Assembly (NCBI GenBank): GCA_026014585.1
Contig: JAOZIA010000024.1
Location: 496,001-560,000, forward strand
DNA: 64,000 nt
DNA from: Candidatus Bathyarchaeota archaeon
GTDB taxonomy: Archaea > Thermoproteota > Bathyarchaeia > Bathyarchaeales > Bathycorpusculaceae
Direction: 5' to 3'
The notes beneath the pieces are model-generated. The model did no database searches. It saw only the letters and a program-made list of their open reading frames with translations, and had not been told where the DNA came from. A program made the translations under genes and the position numbers. Each line of letters opens with the position of its first letter. The stretch's first letter is position 1. Positions 32,392-34,762 of the stretch are shown here, in pieces.

Positions 32392-32498
32392 TGGCGGGCG
32401 GGGAGGGATTTGAACCCTCGACCCCCAACTTAGGAGGCTGGTGCTCTCTGCGGCGCAAAACCAAAGGATTCTGCGAATCCGTACTGAGCTACTCGCCC
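32392..32498 (-). tRNA. tRNA-Arg(CCT) with a 29-nt intron in the D-loop
   Basis: On the minus strand the gene begins GGGCGAG and ends with CCCGCCC, G discriminator and encoded CCA. The T-arm is GAGGG-TTCAAAT-CCCTC and the anticodon arm is CCAGC-CTCCTAA-GTTGG, anticodon CCT. The D-loop is too long by 29 bases. Removing 32448-32476 leaves AGTACGGATA between GCTC and GAGC, a standard archaeal D-loop. The ends fit a relaxed bulge-helix-bulge (bulges ATT and AGA, outer helix CGCA/TGCG; the 4-bp central helix has one A-C mismatch). One acceptor pair (A6-C67) is also mismatched. Confidence 0.85.
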
Positions 32499-34497: not shown

Positions 34498-34605
34498 ATG
34501 ATGGATTTTCGAGCCAAACCAACAGGGTTTTTCATGGGAATTGCAGTACCCATTGATTTCTGCTGCAAACCAAAAAAATTATGTTCCCCTAAACAAAACC
34601 CTTAA
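34498..34605 (+). CDS. 35-residue Cys-containing ORF behind the tandem-repeat leader
   Basis: An ORF of 35 codons with GGGGAGG ending 5 bases before the ATG (34498; a second ATG follows at once). The product has KPTGFFMGIAVPIDFCCKPK, then KLC, and a short SPKQNP end: hydrophobic middle, three cysteines near the C-terminus, four Lys. The ribosome site is one of the best in the window. It could be a genuine small protein, a modified peptide, or a leader peptide; no homologue can be named. It ends 34 bases before tRNA-Leu. Confidence 0.45.
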   Translation: MMDFRAKPTGFFMGIAVPIDFCCKPKKLCSPKQNP

Positions 34606-34638
34606 ACAAGACCAACGCACAAAAGAATAGCGCGAGGT

Positions 34639-34762
34639 GGCGGGGTATCCGAGCCAGGTCTAAATGGGCGGCCAGATACAACATTTGCCCCTAAGATATG
34701 GAGGAGGACTTAAGATCCTCTGGCGCAGGCCTTCGTGGGTTCAAGTCCCACCCCCGCCACCA
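34639..34762 (+). tRNA. tRNA-Leu(TAA) with a 36-nt intron in the D-loop
   Basis: Acceptor GGCGGGG pairs perfectly with CCCCGCC, A discriminator, encoded CCA. The anticodon arm is GAGGA-CTTAAGA-TCCTC (anticodon TAA), there is a long variable arm, and the T-arm is GTGGG-TTCAAGT-CCCAC. Removing 34664-34699 leaves GGTCTAA-GGA, the usual Leu D-loop. The ends fit a bulge-helix-bulge: central helix GTCT/AGAT (one G-U), bulges AAA and ATG each cut after the second base, and outer helix TGGG/CCTA. A TATA-like CCTTAAAC lies about 35 bases upstream. Confidence 0.9.

Follow-up and report, generated by a model that had tools for sequence, protein, structure and literature searches.

Noncanonical tRNA introns, those of the D arm included, are already documented in archaea (PMC8450103; PMC3293823). 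A survey with tRNAscan-SE 2.0 listed 673 such introns in 217 archaeal genomes (PMC8450103), and D-arm introns, including those of a multi-intron tRNA-Leu(UAA), were described in Candidatus Caldiarchaeum subterraneum (PMC3293823). Relaxed bulge-helix-bulge (BHB) motifs of the HBh' type are prevalent in crenarchaea, whose two-subunit splicing endonuclease is able to act on a wider variety of motifs (PMC7714728; PMC4033280). No description of the tRNA-Leu(TAA) intron of Bathyarchaeia was found in the open-access literature searched, subscription papers and tRNA databases lying outside this search. As D-arm introns are known in archaea, the notable feature of the intron reported here is its conservation throughout an order.

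The intron interrupts a tRNA-Leu(TAA) gene in a 64,000-nt stretch of a Candidatus Bathyarchaeota genome, the whole of which is referred to below as the window (Table 1). Like the noncanonical introns of Thermoproteales, it is short, bounded by a BHB and located elsewhere than at position 37/38 of a tRNA gene that is normal in other respects, and its host, a TACK-type archaeon, has a predicted endonuclease of the two-subunit kind. In contrast to Thermoproteales, which carry 0.84 introns per gene on average, the Bathyarchaeia genome is intron-poor, introns being present in seven of approximately 47 tRNA genes; moreover, a single D-loop intron at a single site is here conserved in most of an order. 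The similarity to Candidatus Caldiarchaeum subterraneum lies in the disruption of tRNA-Leu(UAA) in an uncultured TACK archaeon. That organism, however, has three multi-intron tRNAs, one locus being heterogeneous through a mobile element, whereas here tRNA-Leu(UAA) has a single intron that is stable across the order. With canonical hBHBh' introns at position 37/38 the intron shares a central 4-bp helix, 3-nt bulges and an intron-side helix, but it is located at position 22/23 and the exon-side outer helix is absent or reduced. Position 22/23 follows our own numbering, in which the 3-bp D-stem leaves a D-loop spanning positions 13-22.

Table 1. Features of the tRNA-Leu(TAA) locus and of the second tRNA gene with a D-loop intron (window coordinates).
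Feature	Position	Strand	Description
TATA-like CTTAAAC	34602-34608	+	~31-37 nt upstream of the gene; weak, composition-level evidence
tRNA-Leu(TAA) gene, encoded CCA	34639-34762	+	Intact, interrupted by 36 nt
5' exon	34639-34663	+	Acceptor 5' strand GGCGGGG, T8 A9, D-stem TCC, D-loop GAGCCAGGTCTAA (positions 13-22)
Central helix H, exon strand GTCT	34658-34661	+	Pairs with 34694-34697 (AGAT); 92-99% paired in 79 sequences
5' bulge AAA	34662-34664	+	Predicted 5' cut after 34663
Intron, 36 nt	34664-34699	+	tRNA position 22/23 (D-loop/D-stem junction); absent in intronless orthologue L143 (G196)
Intron-side helix h', TGGG	34665-34668	+	Pairs with 34690-34693 (CCTA); 85-99% paired at four positions in 79 sequences, fixed offsets
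Interior motif GCCAGAT (consensus GYCAGA)	34671-34677	+	Within intron
Central helix H, intron strand AGAT	34694-34697	+	Partner of GTCT 34658-34661
3' bulge ATG	34698-34700	+	Predicted 3' cut after 34699
3' exon	34700-34762	+	D-stem GGA, anticodon arm GAGGA-CTTAAGA-TCCTC, variable arm, T arm, acceptor 3' strand
Discriminator A	34759	+	
Encoded CCA	34760-34762	+	
tRNA-Arg(CCT)	32392-32498	-	D-loop intron of ~29 nt; BHB: CGG/CCG, CGCA/TGCG

The gene reads GGCGGGG TA TCC GAGCCAGGTCTAA (36 nt) GGA G GAGGA CTTAAGA TCCTC T GGC GCAG GCC TTC GTGGG TTCAAGT CCCAC CCCCGCC A CCA. When the insert is removed, all 23 cloverleaf pairs form (seven in the acceptor stem, five each in the anticodon and T stems, three each in the D stem and the variable arm), and the joined exons align without gaps over 88 columns with the CAG, GAG and TAG tRNA-Leu genes of the same genome. 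Each of the four tRNA-Leu genes has standard base pairs at all 23 places, both sides differing at nine of them, and none of 500 shuffles gave equally good cloverleaf pairing of the four genes. The long variable arm, the 3-bp D-stem, the TAA anticodon and the discriminator A are those of an archaeal tRNA-Leu(UAA). An initial annotation, made from the letters alone, had described a tRNA-Leu(TAA) with a 36-nt D-loop intron, and its coordinates, anticodon and insert all proved accurate, as did its expectation that the predicted cuts restore the standard leucine D-loop: the loop measures 13 nt in the joined exons and in the three other tRNA-Leu genes.

Searching the whole genome with a tRNA-Leu model returned four tRNA-Leu genes, the one studied here being the only one with a TAA anticodon. 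As leucine TTA codons are used in the open reading frames of the window (254 occurrences among 12,166 codons sampled from these frames), a tRNA-Leu(TAA) is needed. No further copies of its 14-mers are present within the window, and the gene is therefore not locally duplicated. In many relatives TTAAAC is found upstream of tRNA-Leu(TAA) at a broadly similar distance, a weak, composition-level resemblance. General tools overlook this apparently essential tRNA: on the tRNA-Leu(TAA) stretch ARAGORN predicted no genes and Rfam gave no match at the gathering threshold. With a relaxed threshold, Rfam yielded a sub-threshold tmRNA match of 24.9 bits exactly over 34639-34762. A tmRNA identity was rejected, since the match covers the tRNA-like ends only, between which lies an ordinary anticodon arm; the weak tmRNA call arises because the tRNA carries a long insert.

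At the two exon-intron junctions, 3-nt bulges (AAA and ATG) adjoin a 4-bp central helix, GTCT/AGAT, that terminates in a G-U pair, and the intron-side helix TGGG/CCTA is formed as well. These elements are all present as initially annotated, although the helix then termed outer is h', on the intron side. In the canonical hBHBh' motif a further helix, h, of two or more pairs is formed on the exon side next to the 3' bulge; here it is missing: G34657 stands opposite G34701 and A34656 opposite A34702, and in the minimum-energy fold CCA/UGG plus a 1x1 mismatch takes the place of the exon-side outer helix. Because this helix is not canonical, the motif at tRNA-Leu(TAA) is a BHB of the relaxed HBh' type, and the earlier opinion that it is better than that of tRNA-Arg(CCT) holds in the relaxed sense only. 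As a lone RNA, the precursor folds only modestly better than shuffled sequences (z of -2.4 for the whole gene and -1.2 for the 55-nt D-arm stretch).

Conservation of the intron was evaluated by applying the tRNA-Leu model to 61 genomes and an anticodon-arm pattern to 201 genomes of the class Bathyarchaeia. An insert of 20-44 nt at position 22/23 was found in 78 distinct tRNA-Leu(TAA) sequences from the order of the window and in one from outside. Eight BHB pairs were scored at fixed distances from the 5' end and the anticodon arm, with no alignment fitted to the structure. Over the 79 sequences, 599 of 632 cells were paired (94.8%), as compared with 575 ± 2 after shuffling, and none of 2000 shuffles scored as high; as the sequences are related, this count is not a strict probability, but a slid control that preserves relatedness agrees, with pairing falling to 22-52% upon displacement by one to three bases. 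Compensatory exon/intron combinations also occur, namely GTCT/AGAT and GTCT/AGAC, with GACC/GGTT in family f9.

A natural intronless allele is found in one genome of the same order (G196), in which the single match to the anticodon-arm pattern is a tRNA-Leu(TAA) gene without the insert (L143; GAGCCAGGTCTAAGGGGGAGGACTTAAGATCCTC). Here, GAGCCAGGTCTAA is followed directly by GGGGGAGGACTTAAGATCC, and the resulting junction TCTAA-GGG (GGTCTAA-GGG, the hyphen marking the joint) is the predicted splice junction; in the window gene it reads TCTAA-GGA, the last base tracking its D-stem partner. Joined exons that form a standard tRNA are thus matched by an intronless orthologue with the same junction. 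With 78 distinct sequences in one order and one natural loss, this is a well-sampled noncanonical tRNA intron kept for long at one site. Two genomes of other orders (G062 and G063) appear to have the 22/23 site too, which may reflect either common descent or a parallel gain. Named relatives that share the neighbouring B12/radical-SAM gene place the genome in Bathyarchaeia, but no tRNA-Leu(TAA) is present at their loci.

Splicing enzymes are encoded in the genome. The archaeal endonuclease EndA has a histidine in its catalytic triad, and the two PF01974 splicing-endonuclease paralogues of the genome (C23:281026-281277 and C23:97395-97649) differ in this residue. One retains the EHAPY histidine and has catalytic-type chains of crenarchaeal splicing endonuclease as its best matches (2cv8, 3p1z and 3ajv); in the other the catalytic histidine is missing in the alignment to 1a79, the M. 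jannaschii enzyme. There is one RtcB gene. The two-subunit type of endonuclease has been reported to accept relaxed motifs (PMC7714728). In the precursor, D-loop and intron would fold into the relaxed BHB, and the two-subunit endonuclease would cut each bulge between its second and third bases (34663/34664 and 34699/34700). RtcB would then ligate the halves, yielding a tRNA-Leu of the standard form, 85 nt long, with the encoded CCA in addition. We infer from the sequence that the RNA is cut and ligated, and precisely where; the intron is almost certainly excised by the ordinary archaeal tRNA-splicing enzyme.

Taken together, we hold with great confidence that the tRNA-Leu(TAA) gene is functional and present in a single copy, and that its intron at position 22/23 is of the protein-spliced archaeal type. 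Against this stand the noncanonical exon-side helix, the G-U pair at the end of helix H and the modest folding of the lone precursor. The intron reading, already proposed in the initial annotation, is strongly supported by the orthologous introns with conserved BHB and by the natural intronless allele carrying the predicted junction. It is very improbable that the insert is never removed and that the mature tRNA has a 49-nt D-loop. While D-loop length does vary in some tRNAs, the pairing between 34658-34661 and 34694-34697 is under selection and shows compensatory changes, for which a retained loop has no need; moreover, the intronless allele bears the predicted junction and the genome encodes the enzymes for splicing. 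A decayed tRNA, or an assembly artefact, might be suspected from the failure of standard finders and from the draft state of the genome (25 contigs), but all stems are perfect, the same architecture recurs in about 80 independently assembled genomes and no other tRNA-Leu with a TAA anticodon was found in this one, making such an origin more remote still.

The intron might be spliced and also act as a functional RNA, be it a guide or a structured element, and be retained across the order for that reason. This would fit the recurrence of the interior motif GYCAGA (G[CT]CAGA), which is present in 49 of 79 introns from several families as compared with a mean of 0.7-0.8 in shuffles (less than one expected), at varying distances from both ends and despite changes in intron length and flanks. 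In addition, GCCAGA is complementary to TCTGGC of the exon (34718-34723). Nonetheless, a function of this kind is unlikely. Shared ancestry alone could preserve a short motif, the motif is missing in families f7 and f5, Rfam gives no recognisable C/D or H/ACA RNA, and the intron was lost in G196. Pairing of GYCAGA with the exon was rejected for lack of covariation, the exon reading TCTGAC in G179 and G192 without a matching change in the intron. Retention of GYCAGA may reflect shared ancestry or a function, the latter being doubtful, and we give equally little credence to the idea that the intron is kept across the order since GGYCAGA acts as an RNA element. Such an element could pair with TCTGGC of its own tRNA, delaying folding or steering modification, or could belong to a stable excised circle; if so, a D-loop tRNA intron would be functional rather than neutral.

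The tRNA inventory of the genome, comprising 44 over-threshold matches, three sub-threshold intron-bearing genes and three 3' fragments, was read by eye. It contains two D-loop introns among the approximately 47 tRNA genes, those of tRNA-Leu(TAA) and tRNA-Arg(CCT), both of which are located inside the window. The other introns that were readable, in the tRNAs for Ser(CGA), Ser(GGA), Trp, Tyr (two) and Met, are within or close to the anticodon arm or the variable region. The tRNA-Tyr gene L043 (G000:C5:127180-127330) apparently has two anticodon-arm introns, and in the tRNA-Met gene L032 (G000:C2:143435-143539) the insert follows the anticodon stem or lies in the variable region. From two D-loop introns in two tRNAs it had initially been concluded that the lineage has many. 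The count is a sampling accident of the window within this genome, and the conclusion is right in part only, being truer of the wider class: the order has further cases of D-loop introns, and other orders are richer in them.

Within the order, D-loop introns are found in tRNA-Leu(TAA) almost everywhere, in tRNA-Leu(CAA) of other families, near the same site, and in tRNA-Arg(CCT) polymorphically within the genus. The tRNA-Arg(CCT) intron is absent from six loci of the genus (L171, L178, L184, L185, L186 and L191), and two further ones (L170 and L172) have an insert at another site, after TA8-9. The stable tRNA-Leu(TAA) intron, set against a tRNA-Arg(CCT) intron that turns over within the genus, bears on why some tRNA introns persist and others do not. 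By eye, the leucine and arginine introns of the genome have only the BHB format in common and no sequence, and recent transposition between them is therefore not supported. For tRNA-Leu(CAA), there was no pattern match in 32 genomes of the window's genus and none by the model in the window genome, pointing to loss or to heavier disruption, whereas the gene is present in other families of the order, mostly with a D-loop intron. In other orders of Bathyarchaeia, which are richer in D-loop introns, tRNA-Leu(TAA) can have as many as three introns, some of them at a different site of the D-loop. Five such genes (L305, L307, L308, L309 and L310) apparently carry three introns each, in the D-loop, in the 5' strand of the anticodon stem and at 37/38.

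The three 3' fragments derive from tRNA-Pro (L046; G000:C23:364346), tRNA-Ala (L049; C13:15989) and tRNA-Leu (L050; C2:235057) and are located 10 kb, 13 kb and 2.6 kb, respectively, from the intact tRNA genes that they match; they resemble copies of attachment sites that integrated elements have left behind. In one relative, G005, a second copy of the 3' half of tRNA-Leu(TAA), with the intron's 3' end included, lies downstream of the intact gene at a distance of 3.7 kb (L112 and L196; C69:21622 and 25290), and a 488-aa open reading frame lies between the two. The intron is thus no bar to tRNA-Leu(TAA) serving as a target, if it is a target at all.
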